Shown one piece after another: positions 9,735 to 63,751 of a stretch of 64,000 nt of DNA (positions are counted from its first letter, which is position 1; each line of letters opens with the position of its first letter). The position numbers and the translations under genes are program-made. The notes below the pieces were generated by a model. The model saw nothing but the letters and a program-made list of their open reading frames with translations, searched no databases and was not told the origin of the DNA. The DNA is from Leptolyngbya sp. FACHB-8 (GTDB lineage Bacteria; Cyanobacteriota; Cyanobacteriia; Elainellales; Elainellaceae): the NCBI RefSeq assembly GCF_014695575.1, contig NZ_JACJOO010000048.1:62001-126000 (forward strand), in the 5' to 3' direction.

Positions 9735-9845
9735 GGTTAAGGGCTTTTTCAAGAGGCGGCTTCTTGCGTCCCTCGAAAAAGCCCGTTTTGGCGTGCGCTC
9801 TACACACACCAAAATGGGCTTTTAGACCCATCTCGAACTGAGGTC
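9735..9845. repeat. Double-hairpin repeat element, copy 1
   Basis: The element begins GGTTAAGGGCTTTTTC. It forms one imperfect hairpin (about 9741-9784, arms GGGCTTTTTC and GAAAAAGCCC) and a second one (about 9781-9819, GCCCGTTTTGG with CCAAAATGGGC). It ends CGAACTGAGGTCAAATAA. Copies at 11954-12074 and 12624-12736 share ends and layout. This copy has a decayed left end. Confidence 0.75.
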
Positions 9846-10017
9846 AAATAAGCTATTTGCGAATGCGAACTATCCGCAAAAGCTTCCTCGGAACTGACGT
9901 TACACTAAAGTTAGCGGGCATCCTGCGTTACAGGTTCCGGATGCTAACCCGCGAGAAATGTTGTCTCGCTTGCCAATTTCCGCTAATCCATTTCATTCGT
10001 TATGGAGTCACTGTGCC

Positions 10018-11953: not shown

Positions 11954-12074
11954 ACCTGAGTTCGGGTTAAGGGTGTTTTCGAGTGCCGCGCAACGCGCGG
12001 CATTCGAAAACACTCATTTTGGCGTGCGCAAAGCGCACGCCAAAATGAGCACTTTAGCTTATTCCGAACTGAGG
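11954..12074. mobile_element. Double-hairpin MITE-like element, copy 2, with 9-bp direct repeats
   Basis: Terminal inverted repeats ACCTGAGTTCGG and CCGAACTGAGGT (one mismatch) enclose two long hairpins. One has GAGTGCCGCG / CGCGGCATTC-type arms; the other has arms CTCATTTTGGCGTGCGC and GCGCACGCCAAAATGAG around AAA. TTAAAACTA occurs immediately outside both ends (11945-11953 and 12075-12083), as expected for a target-site duplication. It lies upstream of the Hli gene and encodes nothing. Confidence 0.75.
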
Positions 12075-12204
12075 TTAAAACTAGGTTTGTTTTATGACGG
12101 TGAATCACTTCCTCTGAATAAGGAGAAAGCTTCTATCAGAATTGAAATAAAACTTAACATGTATGTTATAGTTATTTACATAAATACATGAGAAGGAAAT
12201 TTCT

Positions 12205-12623: not shown

Positions 12624-12736
12624 GGTTAAGGGCTTTTTCGAGGGACACGCCTTGCGCGCCCCTTGAAAAAGCCCTTTTTAGTTGCGTGGAGTGCACACCA
12701 AAATGGGCACTTGGGCCAAGCCCGAATTGAAGTTAA
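12624..12736. repeat. Double-hairpin repeat element, copy 3
   Basis: It begins GGTTAAGGGCTTTTTCGAGG, pairs with CCCTTGAAAAAGCCC, then has a decayed second hairpin ending CACCAAAATGGGC. It closes with CCCGAATTGAAGTTAA, a mutated form of the CCGAACTGAGGTTAA end of copy 2. No obvious direct repeats remain, so it is likely an older insertion. Confidence 0.7.
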
Positions 12737-12847
12737 GTAGATGTCGCCTTCCAGCAAAGTCCTTTACACTGTGAAACAGGAAGAAATCTTTCATAACGTG
12801 TCAGGCATCACCCTTTAAGTCCGATACCTGGTAGATGATGACCCAAA

Positions 12848-13329: not shown

Positions 13330-13522
13330 CTCAAGCCCTGGATTTTACCAGCAGTTATCATTATGAGCTTCAAAGCCAAGATTGCGCGCCCGTCGGGCGC
13401 GCAATCTTGGCTTTGAAGCCCGAAAACCGCTTGCCTTCGGCAAGCAGTTTTCGGGCTTAATTCCATACTAAGAATTGCTGGGATTTTACGGCGCGGCGCG
13501 TACGCAGAATCCAGGGCTTGAG
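13330..13522. repeat. 193-bp compound palindrome (outer stem plus two inner hairpins)
   Basis: An outer stem (CTCAAGCCCTGGATT at 13330-13344 with its complement at 13508-13522) and a short inner pair (CCAGCA at 13348 with TGCTGG at 13476) enclose two hairpins. The first has 24-bp perfect arms (13368-13391, 13395-13418). The second (13418-13456) has the apex GCTTGCCTTCGGCAAGC, an RNA-type CUUCGG tetraloop. It could be a mobile element with the same architecture as the double-hairpin family but unrelated sequence, or a structured RNA. Confidence 0.75.
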
Positions 13523-22948: not shown

Positions 22949-23017
22949 AGGACTGACACATTTATAGGGCGTGGGGTGTGCAAAGCATACCCCACGCCCT
23001 ATAAATGTGTCAGTCCT
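22949..23017. repeat. 69-bp palindrome with AGGACTG ends
   Basis: Arms of 33 bases (AGGACTGACACATTTATAGG... to GTGC, one mismatch) surround AAA. The ends match the palindrome at 60805-60859 (AGGACTGGCGTATTTTTAT), whose inner arms differ. It lies eight bases past the stop of the secreted protein gene. Confidence 0.85.
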
Positions 23018-27316: not shown

Positions 27317-27367
27317 AGTTTATTTTTTGAACAGCTATGCGAAGCGTAGCTGTTCAAAAAATAAACT
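27317..27367. repeat. Palindrome with GCGAAGC core upstream of truB
   Basis: The arms AGTTTATTTTTTGAACAGCTA and their complement surround TGCGAAGCG. TTTTTTGAA links it to the 15949 and 23024 copies, and TATAGCGCTA lies just upstream (about 27290-27299). It sits between the divergent lipoprotein and truB genes. Confidence 0.8.
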
Positions 27368-27469
27368 GTTTTGTATAAGGCTATAGAACTGGGTATAGCC
27401 CGTCTTTCTGGTAGCGATCGCCCTCATAAACGGTGGAACGGACTCTCCAGGAGCCGCTTCCCCGATAGG

Positions 27470-28399
27470 ATGGAGATTGCTAATGTCAGTGAAATTGAGA
27501 TAGTGGACGGATTTCTTAACCTGGACAAGCCCTTGAGGTTTACGTCCCATGATTGTGTTGCGCGGGTGCGGCGACTGCTTCGCCAGAAACGAGTAGGCCA
27601 TGCAGGTACTCTTGACCCGGCAGCTACGGGGGTTCTGCCTATTGCGATGGGACGGGCAACCCGGCTATTGCAGTTTTTGCCCTCCGATAAAGCCTATCGG
27701 GCCGTGATTCGTTTTGGTGTTCAAACGGCTACCGATGACCTGGATGGTGAGGTGCTCCAATCGAATCCCTGCCCCGATTTAACCCTCGAAGCGATTCAGG
27801 GAAAGCTGCACCAATTTCTGGGTTCTATTCAACAGATACCGCCACAATACAGTGCGATTCAAGTGGGGGGGCAGCGCCTCTATGACAAAGCTCGTAAGGG
27901 AGAAGTGGTAGAAGTTCCCGTGCGCACGGTTGAGGTGCACTCCATTGAGGTGCTGGCCTGGCATTCAGGGGAGTTTCCGGAATTAGAGGTGGCGATCGCC
28001 TGCGGTCCCGGCACCTACATCCGCGCGATCGCCCGTGACCTCGGTCAGGCCGTTCACACTGGAGCGACCCTCGCAAAACTCATCCGTACCAGTAGCAGTG
28101 GGTTTGACCTCGACAGCAGCTTGTCTCTAACGGATTTAGAAGAACAACTGCAGCAGAATGCCTTTCAACCCATTTCACCTGAGGTTGCCCTGCAATATCT
28201 GCCGGTGATTCAACTGGCTGATCCAGAGGCCCGTCGTTGGTGCATGGGTCAACGACTGCTTTGGGAAGGTACAGAGGCTCCCGGTGAGCAGGCATTTCGA
28301 GTGTATGGTGAGGGCGATCGCCTCCTCGGTATCGGCCAAATTCGCACCTACGAGTCAGATCCCATCCTGTCTCCCTGGGTCGTCCTCGCGCAGGAGTAA
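27470..28399 (+). CDS. truB: tRNA pseudouridine(55) synthase TruB
   Basis: From ATG 27470 the protein is 309 residues; the frame continues upstream to 27371 through palindromic DNA that is unlikely to be coding. The catalytic motif GHAGTLDPAATGVL carries Asp at about residue 49. Typical TruB segments follow (KAYRAVIRFGVQTATDDLDG; IPPQYSAIQVGGQRLYDKAR; CGPGTYIRAIARDLG), and a C-terminal PUA-like tail is present. TruB converts U55 to pseudouridine in the T-loop of tRNAs. The stop codon abuts the 101-bp palindromic element. Confidence 0.96.
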   Translation: MEIANVSEIEIVDGFLNLDKPLRFTSHDCVARVRRLLRQKRVGHAGTLDPAATGVLPIAMGRATRLLQFLPSDKAYRAVIRFGVQTATDDLDGEVLQSNPCPDLTLEAIQGKLHQFLGSIQQIPPQYSAIQVGGQRLYDKARKGEVVEVPVRTVEVHSIEVLAWHSGEFPELEVAIACGPGTYIRAIARDLGQAVHTGATLAKLIRTSSSGFDLDSSLSLTDLEEQLQQNAFQPISPEVALQYLPVIQLADPEARRWCMGQRLLWEGTEAPGEQAFRVYGEGDRLLGIGQIRTYESDPILSPWVVLAQE

Positions 28400-28500
28400 G
28401 GAGATTTCCAGTAATGAAATTACCCCCAGAATGTTGGTGCTTTGCCCGCTTCGCGGGCAAAGCACCAACATTCTGGGTAAATTCTTATGCAGAAACCTCC
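28400..28500. mobile_element. 101-bp palindromic element, copy A
   Basis: The ends GGAGATTTCC and GGAGGTTTC-type (reverse strand) are conserved with the element at 37328-37428, and both are exactly 101 bp. The centre is a 25-bp perfect hairpin (28425-28477) with a TTC loop, so the minus strand reads GCGAAGC. Its arms are unrelated in sequence to copy B. It begins immediately after the truB stop. It has no ORF. Confidence 0.75.
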
Positions 28501-28515
28501 TAAGCTGTGCTACGT

Positions 28516-28567
28516 CTACCGCCGATTGTAGGGATGCAACATATTACGTCCCTACAATCGGCGGTAG
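28516..28567. repeat. Palindrome between truB element and hypothetical gene
   Basis: CTACCGCCGATTGTAGGGA (28516-28534) pairs perfectly with 28549-28567 across a 14-base loop. It lies 11 bases past the stop of the minus-strand gene at 28578 and could be part of its transcript end, though no T-tract follows. Confidence 0.8.
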
Positions 28568-28577
28568 CTCGACAAAT

Positions 28578-28871
28578 TCATTCCCAGGTGGCGACAATTC
28601 TTAAGGGTTCAGGAATTTCAGAATCGACTGGGAATTCCAATAGGGTTTCCCGCAGCCCCAGGTAGCCGGATTCTGCAAAGGAAAGTAACATTCGCTGAAG
28701 GGCAACCCAGACCTCAGGGTCAAATTCCCAGTCCCGTTCATAGGGGGCGTGAGCGGCGATCGCCTTGAGTGCCCAGAAGTAAGTATTTCGCACCACCGAT
28801 CCCTGTTTCTTGTACTCAGGAAGGTCTTCGTGATGCACAAAGAGAATATCGTCTTTAATATGCGATCGCAT
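28578..28871 (-). CDS. Hypothetical protein, 97 aa
   Basis: This small soluble protein is rich in aromatic and acidic residues (LFVHHEDLPEYKKQG; ALQRMLLSFAESGYLGLRE; C-terminal PEPLRIVATWE). There is no signal peptide or membrane helix. Codon use is like that of the neighbours, and the HIP1 octamer overlaps the start region. I recognise no domain. It is a single gene oriented against truB, with a palindrome at its 3' end. Confidence 0.65.
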   Translation of the reverse strand: MRSHIKDDILFVHHEDLPEYKKQGSVVRNTYFWALKAIAAHAPYERDWEFDPEVWVALQRMLLSFAESGYLGLRETLLEFPVDSEIPEPLRIVATWE

Positions 28872-29201
28872 GCATCCAAATTTAATACACTTGTTCTATC
28901 ATACTAAGGCAAACTCTCTATTCGTTCGAAAAATATCCATTGTATTAGTCCAGTTCCTCCTGTGGTTAACCTAGAAAATCGTGTGATGTAGGGATGTATT
29001 CAGGATCAAGCATAGGTCAGGGATGTGAAATGCCTTGCATTTATGCACTTGCCGTCCGAAGGTGGGGCTATTGTCTGGTCTTCGCAGGTCGAGGGTTAAA
29101 AATCCGACAAGACAAACACCCTCTACGAAGGAGGACTTAGACTGATAAAGGATGGTGTTAACGAATGGCTGTGAGCGCTTTCGTAGGTCAATCTTTCATT
29201 T
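28872..29201. other. Divergent intergenic region upstream of recN
   Basis: These 330 bases lie between the minus-strand hypothetical gene and recN. I see no gene, palindrome or clear promoter. A segment near 29085-29130 (GGTCGAGGGTTAAAAATCCGAC) superficially resembles a tRNA T-arm, but no acceptor or anticodon arms can be built around it. Confidence 0.4.
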
Positions 29202-31049
29202 ATGCTAATTTCGCTTCAAATTGAAGATTTTGCACTGATTGATCGGCTGTCGCTGAGTTTTGGCGACGGCTTGAATGTGCTGACGGGAGAGACCGGGGCG
29301 GGAAAATCGATTATTTTGGATGCCCTGGATGCGGTCTTGGGCGGCAAAGTCGGGAGCCGAGCAATTCGTTCGGGGGCAGAACGAGCGTCCATTGAGGCGA
29401 CCTTCCGGTTGGATGAGACGCTGAAAAATTGGCTAAAAGCACAAGCAATTGAACCTTCCTCGGAGGGGCACCTGATCTGTAGCCGTGAAATGACAGCAGG
29501 GAAAGGCGGCCAGCGGAGCCGCTCTCGAGTCAATGGGGTGGTCGTCAATAAGCAGCAGTTGGAAGAGTTGCGCGATCGCCTGGTAGAAATCACGGCTCAG
29601 GGTCAAACAGTGCAGCTAGGTCAACCCGGTCTGCAACGAGCCTGGTTGGATGGCTTTGGTGGGCCTGCTCTGGTGGAACAGCGCGAGAAGGTTGCTGCTG
29701 CCCACGCTGCTTATCAGCAAGCGGCCACAGCGCTAGAAAAGCGCCGCCAAATAGAACAGCAGCGCCTCCAGCAACTCGATTTATTTGAATATCAAGCGCG
29801 GGATTTGGCCGCGGCTAACTTGGGTGACCCCGACGAGCTGACTGACCTGGAGCAAGAACGGCAACGATTGGCCCATGCCGTCGATTTGAAGCAGCAGAGC
29901 TATGAGGTTTACCAGGCGCTCTATCAGAACGATAGCGGTGGCGAAGCCTGTGCTGACTTACTGGGGCGGGCTGAGAATACCCTGACAGACATGCTGCGCT
30001 ACGATTCCCAGATCCAGCCCATTCTGGATATGGTGATTGAGGCGATGGCTCAGGTGGAAGAGGCTGGACGGCAGATCAACTCCTACGGTGAGGATCTGGA
30101 AACAGACCCTGAACGGCTGGAGGAGGTGGAGCAGCGAATCCTGCAACTGCGACAGATTTGTAAGAAGTATGGTCCGACGCTGGCGGATGCGATCGCACTC
30201 CACAACCAGCTTCAGGCAGACCTGGAAAGCCTGACCGATGGTGGACAATCTCTAGAAACCCTGGAAAAACAGGTGGAAGAGCGCCTCGCAACCCTCGTCA
30301 GTCTTTGCGCTGCCCTGACGGACTTGCGTAAGGCTGCTGCCCACAAACTACAAGCGCAACTGGTGGAGGAGCTCAAACCCCTGGCGATGGACAAAGTCCA
30401 GTTCCAGGTCAATGTGGCTCCCATGACACCCAGTGCCAGCGGTGCCGATCGCATCACCTTCCTGTTTAGCCCCAACCCTGGTGAGCCCCTGCAACCTCTC
30501 TCAGAAATCGCTTCGGGTGGGGAAATGAGCCGTTTTCTGCTGGCCCTTAAGGCTTGCTTCTCCCAGGTAGACCCTATCGGTACGATGGTGTTCGATGAAA
30601 TCGACACAGGGGTATCGGGACGGGTGGCCCAGGCGATTGCTGAAAAGCTACATCAGCTCGGCCAACGTCATCAGGTGCTCTGTGTAACTCACCAACCGCT
30701 CATTGCAGCGATGGCAACCGCCCATTTCCGGGTTGGTAAACATGTCATTGATCTGCCCACAGGTACCGTGCAACAGAACGGCAGCAAGACGGCCAAAAAG
30801 GGCGATAGCAATGGCAATGGTCACAATGGTAAAACCGAGGAGGTTCGTACCGTTGTCCGGGTCACTCCATTGGATTCTGCGGAGCGTAAACAGGAGATTG
30901 CAGCCCTTGTGGGAGGAACAGATCAGGAGGCGATCGCCTTTGCAGAATCTCTCCTGACGCAGGCGGCTCAAACCCGAGGGGAAGTGCCAGAAGCGGTTAC
31001 GGCGGCTAAGTCAACAACACGCGCTTCGAAACGGCGTAAATCAAGTTAG
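29202..31049 (+). CDS. recN: DNA repair protein RecN
   Basis: The product is 615 residues, somewhat longer than E. coli RecN because of a Gly/Asn-rich insert at about 525-550 and a basic tail. It is an SMC-like ATPase: N-terminal Walker A GETGAGKS (29-36), a central coiled coil, and C-terminal signature ASGGEMSRFLLALK followed by Walker B VFDEIDTGVSG. RecN acts early in double-strand-break repair, binding and bridging DNA ends with RecA. The start has no strong ribosome-binding site, but the N-terminus matches the family exactly. A palindrome follows the stop. Confidence 0.95.
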   Translation: MLISLQIEDFALIDRLSLSFGDGLNVLTGETGAGKSIILDALDAVLGGKVGSRAIRSGAERASIEATFRLDETLKNWLKAQAIEPSSEGHLICSREMTAGKGGQRSRSRVNGVVVNKQQLEELRDRLVEITAQGQTVQLGQPGLQRAWLDGFGGPALVEQREKVAAAHAAYQQAATALEKRRQIEQQRLQQLDLFEYQARDLAAANLGDPDELTDLEQERQRLAHAVDLKQQSYEVYQALYQNDSGGEACADLLGRAENTLTDMLRYDSQIQPILDMVIEAMAQVEEAGRQINSYGEDLETDPERLEEVEQRILQLRQICKKYGPTLADAIALHNQLQADLESLTDGGQSLETLEKQVEERLATLVSLCAALTDLRKAAAHKLQAQLVEELKPLAMDKVQFQVNVAPMTPSASGADRITFLFSPNPGEPLQPLSEIASGGEMSRFLLALKACFSQVDPIGTMVFDEIDTGVSGRVAQAIAEKLHQLGQRHQVLCVTHQPLIAAMATAHFRVGKHVIDLPTGTVQQNGSKTAKKGDSNGNGHNGKTEEVRTVVRVTPLDSAERKQEIAALVGGTDQEAIAFAESLLTQAAQTRGEVPEAVTAAKSTTRASKRRKSS

Positions 31050-31070
31050 GAGCCTTGCAAAAGCAACTTC

Positions 31071-31115
31071 AATTTCTAATGTTGAGCACGCTAAGCATGC
31101 TCAACATTAGAAATT
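31071..31115. repeat. Palindrome downstream of recN
   Basis: AATTTCTAATGTTGAGCA (31071-31088) pairs perfectly with 31098-31115 around CGCTAAGCA. The preceding TTGCAAAAGCAA is itself a small palindrome. There is no T-tract. Confidence 0.85.
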
Positions 31116-31499
31116 AAAACTCGATGTCTGCTATTTTCCTATAGCCGAAGGTCTTAATTCTGTCGCTGTAGAAGCGGATACTAATTCGTCCAAGTTGTTC
31201 TGCAATTTAAGGCGTAGGGTGGATGGGAAGTGCAGGCTTTCTTTCTACGCTAATAACAGTATCTCGCAATGTTCAGTTATTACTAACAACAGAGAAAACG
31301 TGTGTGGCCTTTAGGCTACATGCAAGATTTCTGAATCAAAAACATAGCTTTTAAGCGATCGTCCGCACCCTATGAAAAAGGAGCTTGAGAGTCCGTCCTT
31401 TCTACAAGATTGAACTCCTTTCTTCCTTTTCCATAGTGGACGAATTGCTTTATAGAAAACCATCTGGCATTCATTCCGCTTGAAGAGGGGAGTCTTACC
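31116..31499. other. Intergenic region upstream of AI-2E-type permease gene
   Basis: About 380 bases of moderately AT-rich sequence without a supported gene or clear promoter. A HIP1-like GCGATCG is at about 31357. AGAGGGGAG near 31484-31492 serves as the ribosome-binding site of the next gene. Confidence 0.4.
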
Positions 31500-32609
31500 T
31501 TGCGTTTAGGTAGTGGAATTGGCTTAGTTGTTATTGTTGCTTCCTTAATCGTTCTTTGGAAGATTCGGGAGATTTTGCTTCTGGTTTTTGCGGCAGTTGT
31601 CTTTGCCACGGCCATTAATCGGTTGGTACGACTTCTACAACGGTTCAATGTAAAACGGGGGCCAGCGATCGCCCTTTCAATTGTTGGTCTACTGGCGCTG
31701 GTGATTGGTTTATTTGCCCTCGTTTTACCGCCCTTTATTAACCAGCTTGAGCAATTAGCAGATCTAATTCCCCCAGGTTTAGAACGTTTGGAGCAGTGGG
31801 CAGAGGTAGTGCAGCGTTGGATTCCTCTAGGGTTAACCGAAGATTTCGGAAGTTTAGATGGTTTGGTACGACAGCTACAAGCTTATACTCCACGGGTTTT
31901 TAATAATTTCTTGAGCCTGTTTTCAAACTCCCTGGGTATTTTGTTGCGGACCCTGCTGGTGCTGGTTTTAATTATTATGCTTTTAGCCCAGCCACGGCCC
32001 TATCGTGAAGGTTTCACATTACTGTTTCCATCTTTCTATCGGCGGCGAGTAGGTGAGATTCTACAGCAATGTGAAAAGGCTTTGGGGGGATGGGTAACAG
32101 GCATTTTATTCAATATGACAGTGATTACTATCATGAGTGGTATTGGATTATGGATCCTGAATATCCCCCTCGTGTTTGGTAATGCAATTCTGGCCGGCTT
32201 GTTGACCTTTATTCCCAATTTAGGACCAACTTTAAGTGTCGTTCCACCTGCTATTTTGGGCTTGCTGGATGCTCCCTGGAAAGTTGGGGCGGTGATTGTT
32301 CTCTATATTGTGATTCAGCAAGTTGAAACCAACATCCTGACACCTCTGGTAATGGAAAAACAGGTGTCTCTATTACCTGCGGTGACTCTGGTATCCCAGC
32401 TAATCTTTGCAAGTTTCTTTGGGTTCTTAGGATTATTTCTAGCTCTGCCGATTGTTGTGGTTGCTCAAGTATGGATTAAGGAAGTCGTTATTCACGATAT
32501 TCTGAACAACTGGAAGGCTCCTAATTCCAATCCATCTCTCCAAACCGTTGAGCCAGAGAACATTATTGTGCTGACAACTGCTAACCCAAACACGCAGCCC
32601 AAAGTGTAA
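31500..32609 (+). CDS. AI-2E family transporter (PerM-like)
   Basis: The product is 369 residues from TTG 31500, with AGAGGGGAG about eight bases upstream. It has eight predicted membrane helices: two at 5-45, one at 58-80, a soluble loop (85-140), a helix at about 148-165, then a cluster at 205-330. The family pattern includes the Pro/Gly-rich FIPNLGPTLSVVPPAILGL segment. Members include TqsA and Na+/H+ antiporters, so the name does not prove autoinducer transport. The codon use is slightly more AT-rich than neighbours. It is followed by a 29-bp perfect palindrome and is monocistronic. Confidence 0.87.
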   Translation: MRLGSGIGLVVIVASLIVLWKIREILLLVFAAVVFATAINRLVRLLQRFNVKRGPAIALSIVGLLALVIGLFALVLPPFINQLEQLADLIPPGLERLEQWAEVVQRWIPLGLTEDFGSLDGLVRQLQAYTPRVFNNFLSLFSNSLGILLRTLLVLVLIIMLLAQPRPYREGFTLLFPSFYRRRVGEILQQCEKALGGWVTGILFNMTVITIMSGIGLWILNIPLVFGNAILAGLLTFIPNLGPTLSVVPPAILGLLDAPWKVGAVIVLYIVIQQVETNILTPLVMEKQVSLLPAVTLVSQLIFASFFGFLGLFLALPIVVVAQVWIKEVVIHDILNNWKAPNSNPSLQTVEPENIIVLTTANPNTQPKV

Positions 32610-32621
32610 GTAGCTCGATCC

Positions 32622-32688
32622 AGTATCTGTTTTAGAGATTATTTTTCGTGTGTTTCGCGCACGAAAAATAATCTCTAAAACAGATACT
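32622..32688. repeat. 29-bp-arm perfect palindrome after AI-2E gene
   Basis: AGTATCTGTTTTAGAGATTA... (32622-32650) is perfectly complementary to 32660-32688 around TGTTTCGCG. It is among the longest perfect arms in the window. The 42111-42145 hairpin (GTTATTTTTGGTGTG) is a decayed relative. There is no T-tract. Confidence 0.88.
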
Positions 32689-32960
32689 AACTAAACGTAA
32701 GACCATCTACCTGGAACATACAGATTTATACAAGCAGTATGTAAATGTTTACACTAAAGATACCCTTCAAGAAGTAGCACTTTGCTATACGTCTAAGGGT
32801 AGAGAATTGCGCCCTAGGATAGAAGCTATTTGATAGTGTCCTCAAGACAATGGGATTTACGACCATCGTTGCTAAGCGGTTGGCTTTTCCGAAGCTGAGG
32901 GAAAACAGAATTTGACGAGAGGCTTAGATTGGGACTGGGCCCGCATTCAAACAATACAGC
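32689..32960. other. Upstream region of PAS hybrid kinase gene
   Basis: About 270 bases with no gene. TTGCTATACGTC lies at about 32781. No promoter pair is convincing. Confidence 0.3.
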
Positions 32961-35900
32961 ATGGCCAGTGTAGAAGATTTTGGCGATCTAGACAGTTCAA
33001 TGTCACCTCCCTCTCGAATATTGCTCATCAATCAGGATGAAGGGCAGCGACGGGCTCTACAGCAACGATTAGAGCCTTATTTTGACGTAGTCATTGCTGA
33101 TGATGAGGCAAGGGCTGTGGCGATCGCCCAAACCTATCCTCCCCGCATTATCCTGGCTGACCGTGACATCAAAATACAGCTGCTTCTTCGGGAAACTCCT
33201 CAACTCAAATCGATACCGCTCATCCTGTTGTTATCACAATCCCACCACTCGGATTGGAGCGATACACCTCTGCCAGAGGCCGATGATTATTTAACCGTGC
33301 CCTGCTCCCAGCAGGAATTGCTGACGCGGCTTCACCTTCATCTGCAACGGGGGCCCCAGCTACAAACAGGTGAATGGCCAGCGAGTCCTGGGAAGGGCGA
33401 TCGCCCTTCTTGCAGTGAGAGCGACCAGCAATGGGTGGAAGAAGCTTTGCGCCGGAGTGAAAGCCGCTACCGCATGCTGGCCAACGTTGTTCCTCAACTG
33501 CTATGGGTGAACGATGCCGTAGGTAACATCGTGTTTTACAACCAGCAATGGTTGGAGTACACCGGGCAAGCACTACAGTTGGGGGAAGGTTTGTGGCGTT
33601 CAGTGATTCACCCCGACGATTTTGAGTCAATCTATCAGATTCGTTCTCAAGCGATTCAAGCGGGTCGAGCCTATGAAGTGGAATGTCGGCTCAAACGGTT
33701 TGATGGAACTTATCGCTGGCATCTGGCCCGGATTGTGCCGGTTAAGAATGAGCAAGGACAGACGGTGCAATGGTTGGGAACTGCTACAGATATTCATACC
33801 CTGAAGGAAACCCAGGCGGCTCTGCGCGAGAGTGAGGCGATCGCCCGTGCCCGCGCCCAGGAACTCGAAGCCTTTATGGAAGCCGTCCCGGCAGGGGTAT
33901 GGATTGCTCACGACCCTGAGTGTCACCACGTCACGGCCAACCCTGCGGCGCATCAACTTCTAGATTGTCCTCCGGGTAGCACGGTTACCGCCACCCCAGC
34001 GAATGGTATCTACCCATTCCCCTTTCACTTTGAAAAGGACGGCCAACCCCTGGCCCTCACCGATCTGCCGATGCAGCGGGCCGGCCGTTTGGGAGAGGAG
34101 ACTCAGGACGAGTTTGATGTAGTGTTTGCTGATGGCCGTGTACGCACGCTGTGGGGGCGATCGGTGCCTTTGTGGAATGAGCAGGGGCAGGTGCGAGGCG
34201 TAATTGGCACCTTCACTGACATGAGTGAGCACAAGCGTACCGAGCGTATTCTGCGGGAGCGAGAACAGCGGTTCAGTACGCTATTCAATGGTATGGAAGA
34301 CTGGGGCCTGGTGTACCATCTGTCACCCGATGGCCGTCCGGGTCGGCTCATTGAGGTGAACGATCAAGCCTGTAAGAAATTGGGGTACAGCCGCGAAGAA
34401 CTACTCTCTATGGCTGTGAGCGACATTATCGTTTCTGCTTTTGTCGATTTGGCTTACAGTCTGAAAACCCTGCTGGAAAATAGGCGAATGATGTTCGAGT
34501 CTGTGCACCGCCATCGGGATGGTCACATGATTCCTTGCGAGGTCAGTGCGACTGTTTTCACGCTGGATGGGCAGTTGACAGTGCAGTCTATTTGTCGTGA
34601 CATCACTGAGCGGCGGCAGGCTGAACAGGCCTTACGGGCGAGTGAAGAACGTTATCGCCAAATTGTCGAAACAGCCGATGAAGGCATCTGGATGGTCGAT
34701 GCTAATGCTCGTACGACATTTGTGAATCAAAAGATGGCTCATCTTTTGGGATACACCCCAAACGAGATGCTGGGCCGCAAGATGTACGAGTTTATGGACG
34801 ATGAGGCGATCGCGATCGCCACCGCAAACTTTCAGGAACAGGAGCAGGGAATTAAGGAGCAGCAAGACTTCCGCTTTCGGTGTAAGGGCGGCTCTTACAT
34901 CTGGACGATGATTTCAACCAACCTTCTGATGAACGATAGAAGAGAGTTTATTGGGGCGCTGGCGATGATTACGGACGTGACAGCTCGCAAGCAGGCTGAG
35001 CGCGAGCGGGAGCAAATTTTAGAACGGGAAAGGTTAGCCCGTGCCGAGGCCGAGCGGGCTAACCGAATTAAAGATGAGTTTTTGGCGATCCTCTCCCATG
35101 AATTGCGATCGCCCCTTAATCCGATCTTGGGCTGGGCAAGCTTGTTGCAAACCCGGAAGGTGAGTGAGGAAACGCTGAGCCAAGCTTTGCAGGCGATCGA
35201 GCGAAACGTGCGGCTGCAAGTGCAGTTGGTGGATGATTTGCTAGATGTGTCGCGCATTTTGCGGGGCAAATTGGCGTTGACTGAGATTCCCATCGATATG
35301 GTCAGCATTGTTAACGCGGCCATTGAAACGGTGCAGTTGGCTGCGAATGCCAAATCCATTTCCATTGAAATGAAACCCATTGATACCAAGATGATGGTAT
35401 TGGGGGATGCCAGCCGTCTTCAGCAGGTCATTTGGAACCTGCTCTCTAATGCCATCAAGTTCAGCCCGAACGGGGGCCATGTCACCATCCAACTGGCCCA
35501 AACCGACACACAGGTGCAGGTGCAAATTCACGATACGGGCAAAGGCATCAGTCCAGACTTTCTGCCTCACATTTTTGAGCATTTCCGGCAGCAAGACAGC
35601 ACCACGACCCGTCAATTTGGAGGGTTGGGTCTGGGTCTGGCGATCGTTCGCTACATTACCGAAATGCATGGGGGTAGCGTAACCGCGGATAGCCCTGGAG
35701 AAGAACAGGGGGCAACCTTCACGGTGCTACTGCCTCGGTTGCAGCAGACCGAGGCAGAGCCAGATGAGCCTCCTCAACCGCTGAGCGCTTCCACAGGTTT
35801 ACAGGGGCTGCGGATTTTGGTGGTCGAAGACAACAACGACACTCGCGATTTTCTGGCATTCTTGCTGGAGCAGAGTGGAGCCGTAGCAACGGCTGCCCCG

Positions 35901-36182
35901 TCCGCCCAAGAAGGACTCGCCTTGCTCGATCAGCAATCCTTTGATTTGCTCATCAGTGATATCGGCATGCCTGACATGGACGGCTACATGTTGATTCGCC
36001 AGATCCGGTCGCGATCGCCCGAAACGGGAGGGAAAATTCCTGCGATCGCCCTCACGGCCTTTGCGGGTGAGCAAGATCGTCAACAAACTCAGGAAGCTGG
36101 GTTCCAAGTTCACGTGGCAAAACCTATCATGCCCAACCAGCTCATTGACACCATTCTTGCTGTGCTCCGCCAGCAAGCCTAG
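32961..36182 (+). CDS. PAS-rich hybrid histidine kinase with N- and C-terminal receivers
   Basis: The product is 1073 residues, soluble. Order: receiver-like domain (about 16-130, Asp67 in ILADRD), four PAS/PAC modules (about 165-287, 295-425, 430-550, 555-680), HisKA with His713 in SHELRSPLNP, HATPase (NLLSNAIKF; GLGLGLAIVRY) to about 930, and a C-terminal receiver (945-1065, Asp1000 in LISDIGMPDMDG). This is a phosphorelay sensor with several ligand- or redox-responsive PAS folds; the absence of membrane helices means it senses internal signals. No output regulator is adjacent. It converges on the DUF1593 gene with two bases between stop codons. Signal and target are unknown. Confidence 0.92.
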   Translation: MASVEDFGDLDSSMSPPSRILLINQDEGQRRALQQRLEPYFDVVIADDEARAVAIAQTYPPRIILADRDIKIQLLLRETPQLKSIPLILLLSQSHHSDWSDTPLPEADDYLTVPCSQQELLTRLHLHLQRGPQLQTGEWPASPGKGDRPSCSESDQQWVEEALRRSESRYRMLANVVPQLLWVNDAVGNIVFYNQQWLEYTGQALQLGEGLWRSVIHPDDFESIYQIRSQAIQAGRAYEVECRLKRFDGTYRWHLARIVPVKNEQGQTVQWLGTATDIHTLKETQAALRESEAIARARAQELEAFMEAVPAGVWIAHDPECHHVTANPAAHQLLDCPPGSTVTATPANGIYPFPFHFEKDGQPLALTDLPMQRAGRLGEETQDEFDVVFADGRVRTLWGRSVPLWNEQGQVRGVIGTFTDMSEHKRTERILREREQRFSTLFNGMEDWGLVYHLSPDGRPGRLIEVNDQACKKLGYSREELLSMAVSDIIVSAFVDLAYSLKTLLENRRMMFESVHRHRDGHMIPCEVSATVFTLDGQLTVQSICRDITERRQAEQALRASEERYRQIVETADEGIWMVDANARTTFVNQKMAHLLGYTPNEMLGRKMYEFMDDEAIAIATANFQEQEQGIKEQQDFRFRCKGGSYIWTMISTNLLMNDRREFIGALAMITDVTARKQAEREREQILERERLARAEAERANRIKDEFLAILSHELRSPLNPILGWASLLQTRKVSEETLSQALQAIERNVRLQVQLVDDLLDVSRILRGKLALTEIPIDMVSIVNAAIETVQLAANAKSISIEMKPIDTKMMVLGDASRLQQVIWNLLSNAIKFSPNGGHVTIQLAQTDTQVQVQIHDTGKGISPDFLPHIFEHFRQQDSTTTRQFGGLGLGLAIVRYITEMHGGSVTADSPGEEQGATFTVLLPRLQQTEAEPDEPPQPLSASTGLQGLRILVVEDNNDTRDFLAFLLEQSGAVATAAPSAQEGLALLDQQSFDLLISDIGMPDMDGYMLIRQIRSRSPETGGKIPAIALTAFAGEQDRQQTQEAGFQVHVAKPIMPNQLIDTILAVLRQQA

Positions 36183-36184
36183 AG

Positions 36185-37312
36185 CTACGGATGAAAGGCT
36201 TCCGCTCCAGGTGAAAACCTTTCATCCGCAGACGTCTGGTTGTATAAACGATTGAGTTTTGTGATCAACGCCTCATACATCATGGGACGGCGATCCAGCA
36301 GGGTCTGAACGCGAGCCTTGTAAACGGTCTGAGCAAGAGTCCAGGTTCGACAGGGGTCCTGGTAATCCCACGCGTTCCCACCATGTATGTCGGTGTAGTA
36401 GTTGGGGCGCGTTTCTGGGAAGGGTTGGTAGAACTGGCCAGCCCAACTCCCTTGTGTTGGCTTATCCCGAGAATGGTTGGGGTCGAGAACATAGAGCAGG
36501 GAGGGGGTATCTCCAGCCCGAAAATAACGAGCCCATTCAAATGGCTGCACGACGTCCCAGATGTTGCGGCCTAATGCTCCGTAGCCCTTCAGCTGCTCCA
36601 ATAACTCCTGGGGGGCATCGCCCTGAAACATACCCTCAAACGTCCAATCGTTCTCGATCCACCACAGGTGATTGAATCGCGGGTCGCTGTAAATTTCCTC
36701 CCGGCCGGAGCCATTCCAGTTTTGCTCATGGCAGGCATTATCCCAGGGGCTCCTGAGATGGGTGCCGATGGAAAGTACCCGCAGGCGGTCGGCGATCGCT
36801 GGCTTTTTCAATAATGCATCTCGCAGCGTTCGCATATTGCCCCAAACCAGGACATACAGCGGATCGTCTGCTGTAGCCTGTTGCGCTTCTCGAATCAGCA
36901 GACGACGGGCGGCACGTGGGTGACGGGCGACGGTTGCACGCAGAGCATCGGGTGCAGGATAGCCCAGGGACTTGTACCGGGTGTTGGTGTCGTTGTAATC
37001 CTGCTCGTAGGCGTCGATCGCTAGCATCGTTGCCTTCACACCCCCCGCCAAAAAGCGATGGGGAATAATGCCTCGAATGTTCACCTCATCGGCATACATC
37101 AGTAGGTGAGCCATGGATTGGCGATCGTCGGGATCTCCCTGCCCAATGTTGATGTCGGTGGTGATGAGAACGCGGGGGCGATCGCTCCTGAGCTCAGGCG
37201 GTTGTGTTGCTGGCTCCTGAGGTAGACAAGCGATTAGAACAAGAAACGTAGATACTAACAGGGCAAGAAAAAAACAGTGCTTCCTCATCCATTGTTTGAT
37301 TGTCATCATCAT
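36185..37312 (-). CDS. DUF1593 nucleoside-hydrolase-like lipoprotein
   Basis: The product is 375 residues, with consecutive ATGs at 37312, 37309 and 37306. A signal peptide ends in the lipobox VLIAC (about residue 29). The catalytic-like segment TTDINIGQGDPDDRQSM resembles the DTD-x-DD calcium site of inosine-uridine nucleoside hydrolases, and the rest fits DUF1593 (DACHEQNWNG-type Asn/His loops, WDYQDPCRTW). The family is often linked to extracellular polysaccharide or nucleoside breakdown, but the substrate is not established. The lipobox puts it in the periplasm or at the surface. A 101-bp palindromic element lies immediately upstream. Confidence 0.83.
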   Translation of the reverse strand: MMMTIKQWMRKHCFFLALLVSTFLVLIACLPQEPATQPPELRSDRPRVLITTDINIGQGDPDDRQSMAHLLMYADEVNIRGIIPHRFLAGGVKATMLAIDAYEQDYNDTNTRYKSLGYPAPDALRATVARHPRAARRLLIREAQQATADDPLYVLVWGNMRTLRDALLKKPAIADRLRVLSIGTHLRSPWDNACHEQNWNGSGREEIYSDPRFNHLWWIENDWTFEGMFQGDAPQELLEQLKGYGALGRNIWDVVQPFEWARYFRAGDTPSLLYVLDPNHSRDKPTQGSWAGQFYQPFPETRPNYYTDIHGGNAWDYQDPCRTWTLAQTVYKARVQTLLDRRPMMYEALITKLNRLYNQTSADERFSPGAEAFHP

Positions 37313-37327
37313 GGCTAACCCAGGTTA

Positions 37328-37428
37328 GGAGATTTCTGAGAAACAATTTCCCCATTATTTGGAGAAAAGGCGCGGCGAAGCCGCGCCTTTTCTCCAAATA
37401 ATGGGGAAGTTCTTATGTGGAAATCTCC
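37328..37428. mobile_element. 101-bp palindromic element, copy B
   Basis: The ends GGAGATTTCTG and GGAAATCTCC frame a 29-bp perfect hairpin (37348-37408) centred on GCGAAGC. Length, ends and centre match copy A at 28400-28500, but the hairpin arms do not. It lies 15 bases upstream of the DUF1593 start, so it may influence that gene's leader. Confidence 0.75.
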
Positions 37429-37734
37429 TTAAGGAGTCACCCGATCGAGCAGTTCAAGGGTTCTACTACAAGCAATGCTGAAAAAGCAGCCGTGCGGTAG
37501 CGCCTGAGATACCCAACGATGTTTTGGAATGATGTCATAATTATTCCCTCCACAAGGGGTAGTTGCAGAAATATTAATGAATGCTTAAGCCTGGGATGTG
37601 CACAGGCTGCCCACTCCAAGGCCGCTACAACATACGCGATGTAGTGCAAATGTAGTGTGAGACTTGTAAGTTTGCTTTCTCCAAATGCTGTATCGCCCGT
37701 CAAGCGGGCGGCACAGCACTTGGGGTTTATATTT

Positions 37735-43542: not shown

Positions 43543-43914
43543 GGAAAAAATCCTCGATGATTAAGCTGGGGAAGTTTGAAGGCATCACTTTGAATTTTTA
43601 TTCAAGAAGCAATTTTTCCCTCATCCCTATGTTTAGCGGTTAGCCGCTTCAGATCCATCAACACGGGATAGATTTTGCTGAAATCTTCGGGTTTGTAAAG
43701 TTTCGATTTCGCGATCCACGATCTGTGCGATAGAAGTGAGGGGGCTAGGTACTAGAATTCCCACCCCTGTTCTGGAAACAGCACGTCATTGAATCTCCTG
43801 CATGGATCGGTTTTTAAGGGCGTGAATTGTTGCGTGGCGAAGCCGCGCAACAATTCACGCCAGAAGTTTATTCGAGAGGTGGTTTTAGGGTTATCTAAAG
43901 CCCCAAATCAGCCG
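43543..43914. other. Intergenic region between galE and hflX
   Basis: This 372-base gap must contain the galE promoter, since both neighbours are on the minus strand and transcription of hflX ends at its other side. It holds the palindrome at 43819-43861. No gene is seen. Confidence 0.4.
43819..43861. repeat. Palindrome with GCGAAGC core, GGCGTGAATTG type
   Basis: Twenty-base arms (one T-G mismatch) surround GAA, so the plus strand reads GGCGAAGCC. It is closely related to 879-919: positions that differ between the two copies are matched by complementary changes in the other arm. Confidence 0.85.
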
Positions 43915-62710: not shown

Positions 62711-63751
62711 ATGGCCCACCAACGTTTAACCCTCAAACAGCTTGCTCTAGCGGGTTTATGTGGTTTCGGTCTGGCAACAGTCTCGGCCGTTGCAACTCCC
62801 GCTCCCTCGTCTGCCCAATCTACGGAATCTACTCCCATTACTCAGGATTCCATGCCCATTCAAGCACCTGGTACTGTCGAACAACCAAGTGCAATCGAGC
62901 AGCCGGGTACTATACAGCAACCCACTACAACCCAACCGGGTACTGTACAGCAGCCTGATGTAATTCAGCAGCCAAGCGTTGATCAACCCAGCACCGTTCA
63001 GCAACGGGGTACCGTTGATCAGCCCAATACTGTCCAGCAGCCAAGTGTTGATCAACTTGGCACTGTTCAACAACCGGGTGCCATTCAGCAACCCAGTACT
63101 GGCCAAACTCCGAGTGTGATTCAGCCGGGTACTGTTCAGCAGCCGGGTACCGTTCAACAGCCGGGTACTGTTCAGCAGCCCAGTAGTGGCCAAACTCCAA
63201 GTGGGGTTCAACCCGGCACTGTTCAACAGCCTGCATCTGAGCAAACCCCCGGAGCCCAAACTCCCCCTGTGTCGCAGGAGCCGGGTAACCTGATCGAGGT
63301 TGCAGGTACCAATGGTTCGTTTAAAACCCTGGTTTCTGCGATTCAAGCCGCAGGTTTAGCAGAGTCGTTAGAAGGCAGCGGGCCTTTTACTGTGTTTGCT
63401 CCTACCGATGAAGCCTTTGCTGCATTGCCTCCCAATATTCTGAATGCATTGTTGTTACCCGAAAACCAGGATTTGCTCACGCAAGTTCTGTCCTATCACG
63501 TTGTGCCCGGGGCAGTCACCTCGGATGAGCTGACAACCGGTGGGGTTGAAACGTTGAATGGTGGCCTGGCGGTTCGGGTTGAACCCAATCAGGTGATTGT
63601 GAATGATGCCAGCGTCGTAACGGCGGATGTTCCCGCTAGCAATGGAGTGATCCACGCAATCAACCGAGTGCTGATTCCTCAAGGGCTGGTCGAAGAACTC
63701 CAGTCTCGGACGGCATCTTCTGACACTACCCAACCCGCACCTGGGCTGTAA
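62711..63751 (+). CDS. Secreted fasciclin-domain protein with Gln-Pro repeat linker
   Basis: From ATG 62711 (GGAGGT upstream) the protein is 346 residues. A signal peptide (about 1-35, ending SSAQS) is followed by a repetitive region to about residue 190 built on QPGTVQQP units. A fasciclin (FAS1) domain covers about 195-335 (FKTLVSAIQAAGL; FTVFAPTDEAFAALP; VLSYHVVPGAVT; NGVIHAINRVLIP). FAS1 domains mediate adhesion and are common in cyanobacterial exported proteins. The C-terminus is short. Location is periplasm or cell surface; ligand unknown. Confidence 0.9.
   Translation: MAHQRLTLKQLALAGLCGFGLATVSAVATPAPSSAQSTESTPITQDSMPIQAPGTVEQPSAIEQPGTIQQPTTTQPGTVQQPDVIQQPSVDQPSTVQQRGTVDQPNTVQQPSVDQLGTVQQPGAIQQPSTGQTPSVIQPGTVQQPGTVQQPGTVQQPSSGQTPSGVQPGTVQQPASEQTPGAQTPPVSQEPGNLIEVAGTNGSFKTLVSAIQAAGLAESLEGSGPFTVFAPTDEAFAALPPNILNALLLPENQDLLTQVLSYHVVPGAVTSDELTTGGVETLNGGLAVRVEPNQVIVNDASVVTADVPASNGVIHAINRVLIPQGLVEELQSRTASSDTTQPAPGL
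62860..63250 (+). repeat. Degenerate QPGTVQQP repeats in fasciclin gene
   Basis: Units of 8-13 codons with the pattern GTVQQPG/S recur about fifteen times. Nucleotide units such as GGTACTGTTCAGCAGCC repeat closely, especially at 63128-63180, pointing to recent expansion by slippage. Confidence 0.8.

Follow-up and report, generated by a model that had tools for sequence, protein, structure and literature searches.

Two 101-bp elements, located at positions 28400-28500 and 37328-37428 of a 64,000-nucleotide stretch of the genome of the cyanobacterium Leptolyngbya sp. FACHB-8 (contig NZ_JACJOO010000048.1, positions 62,001 to 126,000; hereafter the window), are non-autonomous transposons of the type known as miniature inverted-repeat transposable elements (MITEs) and represent two subfamilies, B (in its form B1) and A, respectively, of a single family. 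Each carries a long hairpin with a 3-nt loop. Across the copies of this family in the genome, the two arms of the hairpin change in pairs and the loop occurs in both orientations, its inversion being near saturation. We consider, with a probability of about 0.75, that these hairpins have been mobilised by an ISAzo13-like transposase and that their arms are homogenised, and their loops inverted, by template switching between strands at replication.

A family of hairpin transposons

An original prediction made from the window had described both elements as exactly 101 bp long, with arms pairing perfectly over 25-29 bp, and the sequence agrees: the stem of the B1 element comprises 25 perfect pairs and that of the A element 29 Watson-Crick pairs (30 when one G-T pair is counted). 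When folded as DNA, the two elements gave z-scores of -11.6 to -13.4 over four strands, and none of 200 shuffled sequences folded as well. The hairpin centre, which had been placed at the exact midpoint, lies there in the A element (loop at 50-52 of 101), whereas in the B1 element it is one base off (51-53). The match between the outer 20-25 bases had been overstated, since over the outer 22 bases the consensus sequences of A and B agree at 14/22 positions on the left and 17/22 on the right, and the right end of the first element reads GAAACCTCC rather than GGAAATCTCC. The transposon nature of the elements, their 3-bp target duplications (TAA and TTA) and the inversion of the loop had been passed over.

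Collecting genomic copies by their conserved ends, as had been suggested, did yield further members. In the strain's own genome (6.93 Mb in 95 contigs), the pattern GGAGATTTC-N(70-84)-GAAATCTCC occurred at 61 places and a similar pattern ending in GAAACCTCC and flanked by TNA at 83, with no occurrence of either reversed control. The ends form 9-bp terminal inverted repeats (GGAGATTTC/GAAAYCTCC). Extraction covered 57 of the 61 GAAATCTCC-end places and 83 of the 83 GAAACCTCC-end places; with at most two changes allowed in each end, 148 distinct copies were obtained, all from this genome (A, 55; B1, 83; B2, 10). Of these 148 copies, 128 measure exactly 101 bp and the others 102 (nine), 100 (seven), 99 (three) or 97 bp (one). 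Identical 3-bp flanks indicative of target duplication surround 139/148 copies, most often TAA (72) or TTA (61), with TGA (2), ATA (2), TCA (1) and TTT (1) making up the remainder. Among the 91 copies with sufficient flanking sequence, only 4 interrupt an open frame of at least 150 codons, compared with 93 of 182 control points placed 300 bp away. The ends, the target duplications and the avoidance of open frames are all features of transposons. In 9/91 copies the target duplication coincides with the stop of an open frame of at least 100 codons, a count from which no preference is claimed.

No two of the 148 copies have both flanks in common. L074, an A copy, and L085, a B1 copy, have one flank in common; each lies near the end of a contig, and the shared flank may reflect misassembly at the repeat. 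Neither window element had a match in the plasmid collection. A remnant of about 62 bp without a hairpin was also observed (L081, about 435-601); its left end resembles that of B and its right end that of A, and it adjoins an A copy, a single TAA separating the two.

The relationship between the arms of the two subfamilies is less clear than that within them. Compared with shuffled arms, the A arm matches that of B1 at 10/24 positions (p 0.13) and that of B2 at 11/24 (p 0.026), so that the similarity is near chance and does not establish that one arm descends from the other. Within subfamilies, the consensus arms of B1 and B2 differ at 4/24 positions, and three copies designated A2 (L117, L141 and L151) stand three or four paired changes away from A; such intermediates indicate that drift by paired changes is real. 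Given enough time, this drift could yield unrelated arms in A and B as old relatives, but these arms could also be independent hairpins between the same transposon ends.

Paired arm changes and loop inversion

Arm changes were counted as distinct variants against the consensus of each subfamily. Complementary changes on both arms numbered 27 (A, 8; B1, 11; B2, 8), all of them Watson-Crick, and two-arm changes lacking complementarity were absent. One-arm changes numbered 29 (A, 9; B1, 9; B2, 11). With the same number of arm hits, a model of independent hits gave 0.31 complementary doubles on average and at most 3 in 2,000 trials. The A element of the window itself bears a private two-arm change from A-T to G-C, 13 bp from the loop. 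Length changes may also be paired: an identical deletion, of 1 nt in L039 and of 2 nt in L076, affects both arms, a left-arm deletion in L028 is offset by a right-arm substitution such that the arms still pair, and L144 has matched gaps in an ambiguous alignment. In A and B1 together, 19 two-arm changes in 53 stem pairs compare with 26 distinct changes at 90 outer sites, which suggests that two-arm changes arise at about the ordinary rate of single changes.

This rate bears directly on whether the hairpin has been maintained by selection, either as DNA needed for transposition or as RNA, with single-arm mutants being purged or rescued by a second hit. Folding far beyond that of shuffled sequences accords with such selection, as do the 24 loop-nearest pairs, all of which are intact in 121/148 copies. 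However, paired changes accumulating as densely as outer changes contrast with the 0.31 expected in total from independent second hits. Mismatches adjoin the loop, where harm to folding should be greatest, and selection would not invert the loop of copies that are identical elsewhere. We therefore regard it as quite unlikely. Gene conversion or recombination between dispersed copies, by which a palindromic core could be pasted in either direction and its loop thereby flipped, is likewise given a low probability. Two of the two-arm changes do recur across several backgrounds (27 B1 copies for position 20 and 7 for position 10), as exchange could bring about, but 17/27 are confined to a single copy and hence have no donor among the extracted copies, and the origin of each paired change would still need explanation.

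The loop consists of GAA or its reverse complement TTC, with 29 GAA and 25 TTC among the 55 A copies and 31 and 48, respectively, among the 83 B1 copies. The set collected by the GAAACCTCC-end pattern, which favours neither loop, includes 32 GAA and 47 TTC in 83 (p 0.11 against equal numbers). Copies of otherwise identical sequence are divided in the same manner: the exact B1 haplotype has 13 GAA and 14 TTC in 30 copies, the exact A haplotype 13 and 12 in 25, and both loops occur in 9 of the 12 haplotypes represented by at least two copies. When only the 49-base cores are considered, both loops are found in 6/7, including cores bearing arm changes of their own (L113 with L162; L064 and L073 with L082), so the split is not solely the choice of an assembler. 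In the copies as oriented, the outer parts keep one direction, which means that flipping is confined to the hairpin and leaves the ends as they are. Loop inversion thus appears to be much faster than point mutation.

The elements would be moved by a transposase acting in trans, which would recognise the GGAGATTTC...GAAAYCTCC ends and duplicate a 3-bp target, mostly TNA. Their paired changes and inverted loops would come from inter-strand template switching at replication. At the replication fork, the nascent strand would quit its template inside one arm and anneal to the corresponding arm of the opposite parental strand. It would then copy through the loop, inverting it, and rejoin its own template in the other arm. 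Everything between the two points of switching would be made complementary, so that a mutation in one arm would be either lost or transferred to the second arm. Positions internal to both switch points would simply change places, leaving loop-proximal mismatches; a mutation there would, as derived from the model here, move to the other arm unpaired, which fits the single changes seen near the loop. With such rewriting, two-arm changes would accrue at about the ordinary mutation rate, the stem staying perfect while its sequence drifts. Template switching explains the paired changes, their stem positions and the loop inversion, for which selection on the hairpin offers a poor account. The original prediction had already proposed that the arms change together through template-switch repair; this stands within subfamilies (27 paired changes against 0.31, some paired insertions or deletions, and loop inversion), though not for the A-B pair on which it was based, and its proposal of arm replacement as a cassette swap gained no support of its own.

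Copying between two switches predicts that two-arm changes should lie mid-stem, because only positions between switch points are rewritten, whereas selection for folding would be expected to produce the opposite pattern near the loop. From loop to base, the numbers of two-arm and one-arm changes per fifth of the stem are 0/12, 7/5, 10/2, 6/1 and 4/9, two-arm changes thus lying mid-stem and one-arm changes near the loop or the base. Their distances to the nearest stem end differ without any cut-off being applied (p 3.6e-6, Mann-Whitney).

A second, unrelated hairpin family of transposon-like appearance is present in the window at 850-934 and 43795-43870. Its ends resemble AGACCTCCTGC...GCAGGAGGTCT, its copies in the genome number at least 30 and its loops are GAA/TTC, GCA/TGC, GGA/TCC and AAA/TTT. 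With 850-934 as query, 27 of 30 copies were used, while L210, L211 and L213, whose centre could not be placed, were dropped; since these 30 loci are those that best matched a GAA query, their GAA:TTC ratio is biased and was left unused. Counted as cells, which are not independent, 22/28 doubles and 13/47 singles lie beyond 6 bp (p 3e-5).

Several observations weigh against template switching at replication as the explanation. The evidence consists of copies at different loci of one genome, with no flip at a single locus, and although paired arm changes and loop inversions are both common, no nameable single event joins the two. Unpaired arm deletions occur in L027, L139 and L152, and some of the distinct variants, being defined against a consensus, may have been inherited or passed between copies. 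The split at 7-22 bp, inside which 25/27 two-arm and 6/29 one-arm changes fall, was chosen after the data had been seen. In the second family, the distinct changes beyond 6 bp are weaker evidence (9/12 doubles and 11/26 singles, p 0.086), and support from this family is consequently partial.

In addition, the flips could take place at transposition, or an assembler could have misassigned loops between identical copies, the flank shared by L074 and L085 being a sign of such trouble. If flips and arm copying occurred during transposition itself, each new insertion would receive a random loop orientation, without changes in place at replication forks; the near 50:50 division of loops among identical, and hence young, copies would be in keeping with this. 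Paired changes confined to one copy are compatible with both timings, but an element of the DDE type would seem to offer no obvious reason for the copying of a hairpin, and we hold this timing to be unlikely. That the loop of a collapsed repeat was assigned at random during assembly is highly improbable: the 95 contigs do suggest a draft, the elements are near-identical repeats and the two copies with a common flank lie near contig ends, yet both loops occur in arm-marked 49-base cores, so that both k-mers should exist, and the paired arm changes are left unexplained.

A broader proposal, which we regard as rather doubtful, is that loop inversion and arm copying form a regular step in the life of the element, each transposition or fork passage rewriting the hairpin and the transposase keeping only the ends. 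If this were true, the stem would be free to drift in sequence while remaining perfect, selfish hairpins would be self-renewing, using one arm as the template for the other, and such rewriting would end in subfamilies whose arms are unrelated, such as A and B.

Relatives, candidate parent and setting in the window

The same ends with TNA flanks, enclosing other bodies, were found in 6 of the 98 genomes searched, the strain's own included. In one of them (G009), nine places carry these ends and flanks around another body, eight of which measure 91 bp between the flanks; a genome of the same genus (G001) had no copy by the pattern of ends and TNA flanks. A scan of genome contigs with TNAGGAGATTTCTGAGAAA matched at least 81 stretches, many of them from Leptolyngbyaceae and some from unrelated taxa with the appearance of chance matches. 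Among the 81 matches listed, 19 had a matching second end and the same flanking triplet within 2.5 kb, with the two ends 88-157 bp apart in 18 and 1,323 bp apart in one.

This 1,323-bp element (L262:4497-5819, from Cyanobacteria bacterium RM1_2_2) is bordered by TAA at either end and contains an open segment of 243 amino acids that matches PF07592 (DDE_Tnp_ISAZ013) with an E-value of 2.1e-69. A further open frame, of 189 codons, lies before this segment and overlaps it, and the putative transposase would therefore be read in two frames, its gene appearing from the sequence to be either frameshifted by design or broken. A 1,344-bp element in another assembly (L278, Leptolyngbyaceae SM1_4_3) is 97.7% identical to it and has TTAA on both sides. 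The 101-bp elements are non-coding and lack PF07592, which only the full-length relatives encode. To judge from these two copies of one element, the parent of the 101-bp elements is likely to be an insertion sequence of the ISAzo13 type.

Two results count against this parentage. A PF07592 search of 36 genomes in the family gave matches in 21, and of the 30 loci fetched only one (L308) had paired ends, and it proved to be the L262 locus again, with 100% identity over 3,756 bases. No autonomous copy was found in the strain's own genome, whose only PF07592 gene (L300 1216-2439, an open frame of 407 codons) has no GGAGATTTC ends within 1.5 kb on each side; the transposase behind the recent burst would thus be missing, unassembled or different. 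The case for template switching does not depend on the parent. Transposases of PF13340, PF01609 and PF13359 were also considered as parents and set aside, because no fetched member lay inside these ends; one member of this set occurs near a B1 copy (L178/L181) and is not flanked by the element ends.

The features of the two window elements are compiled in the table. The B1 element lies directly 3' of an open reading frame (ORF) resembling truB, and the A element lies 15 bp upstream of the start of a minus-strand ORF (36185-37312); gene names in the window are readings of translations. Intrinsic termination was set aside as a role, as a pattern scan of 28200-37700 gave 12 terminator-like sites against 10.4 in shuffles, which provides no evidence for it.

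Coordinates of the two hairpin elements and their parts in the window
Feature	Position	Strand	Remarks
TAA target duplication, left	28397..28399		also the stop codon of the truB-like ORF 27371-28399
Subfamily B1 element, 101 bp, loop TTC	28400..28500	+	own-genome match G000:C43:90397-90503
Left stem arm of B1 element, 25 bp	28425..28449	+	inverted-repeat scan, folding
3-nt loop TTC of B1 element	28450..28452		inverse GAA in 31/83 B1 copies
Right stem arm of B1 element, 25 bp, perfect complement of left arm	28453..28477	+	inverted-repeat scan, folding
TAA target duplication, right	28501..28503		flank comparison
TTA target duplication, left	37325..37327		flank comparison
Subfamily A element, 101 bp, loop GAA	37328..37428	+	sequence, alignment of copies
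Left stem arm of A element, 29 bp	37348..37376	+	counted on sequence, folding
3-nt loop GAA of A element	37377..37379		inverse TTC in 25/55 A copies
Right stem arm of A element, 29 bp	37380..37408	+	counted on sequence, folding
TTA target duplication, right	37429..37431		flank comparison

Other repeats were observed in the window. Long inverted repeats that are nearly perfect, have loops of 1-9 nt and lack GGAGATTTC ends are located at 32622-32688, 13367-13419, 22949-23017, 27317-27367 and 28516-28567, and a further imperfect hairpin repeat (family D3) has three copies at 9766-9848, 11997-12079 and 12655-12737. At 62867-63208, repeats are spaced by multiples of 3 bases (18, 51 and 69 bp) and would be rich in Gln and Pro if coding.

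Comparison with known systems

The terminal repeats of the 101-bp elements are the same as those of the ISAzo13-type (PF07592) elements L262 and L278, from which the window elements differ in being 101 bp long and non-coding, with an unrelated palindromic body. REP and REPIN palindromes, associated with RAYT transposases, are dispersed and intergenic. The present elements are likewise dispersed intergenic palindromes, but they have terminal inverted repeats, 3-bp target duplications and ends in common with an element of the DDE type. Integron attC sites combine conserved ends with a variable stem; sites of this kind were set aside in view of the target duplications and the ends shared with a transposase-bearing element. 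Cyanobacterial MITEs such as Nezha, which is among the works cited in one report (PMC10969869), would, going by the name MITE, likewise be small and non-autonomous with terminal inverted repeats.

Template switching and MITEs are each already known. According to excerpts of a study of yeast (PMC8604942), perfect inverted repeats undergo arm homogenisation and inversion of short spacers, including ttc to gaa, with 10 spacer inversions in genes; an inverted spacer is taken there to signify intermolecular template switching that started in the first arm, with homogenisation of the arms as its companion. For hairpins of ribosomal RNA (rRNA), excerpts of another study (PMC8794818) treat compensatory change together with loop inversion as the strongest support for template switching and as very rare, with 6 such cases; 69 loop inversions alone were also counted. 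Among literature titles and abstract openings, with subscription papers mostly outside this scope, no report of a bacterial MITE with loop inversion or homogenised arms was found.

The useful part of the present family is the natural experiment that it provides. In about 150 closely related hairpins of one genome, the outer sites serve as an internal clock, the loop registers inversions and the stem shows, by position, where one arm has been copied from the other. Sequence alone could suffice to estimate how fast inversion and homogenisation proceed and where the switch points lie. The family also shows that selection on structure is not a necessary conclusion from paired changes in a hairpin, a caution for searches that take covariation as proof of functional RNA. 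Arm homogenisation and spacer inversion are common to this family and to template switching of the Ripley model as presented in the excerpts of both studies (PMC8604942, PMC8794818). Whereas the yeast and rRNA cases described there comprise few events, a single mobile hairpin has here undergone about 150 parallel trials in one genome, with its loop near saturation.

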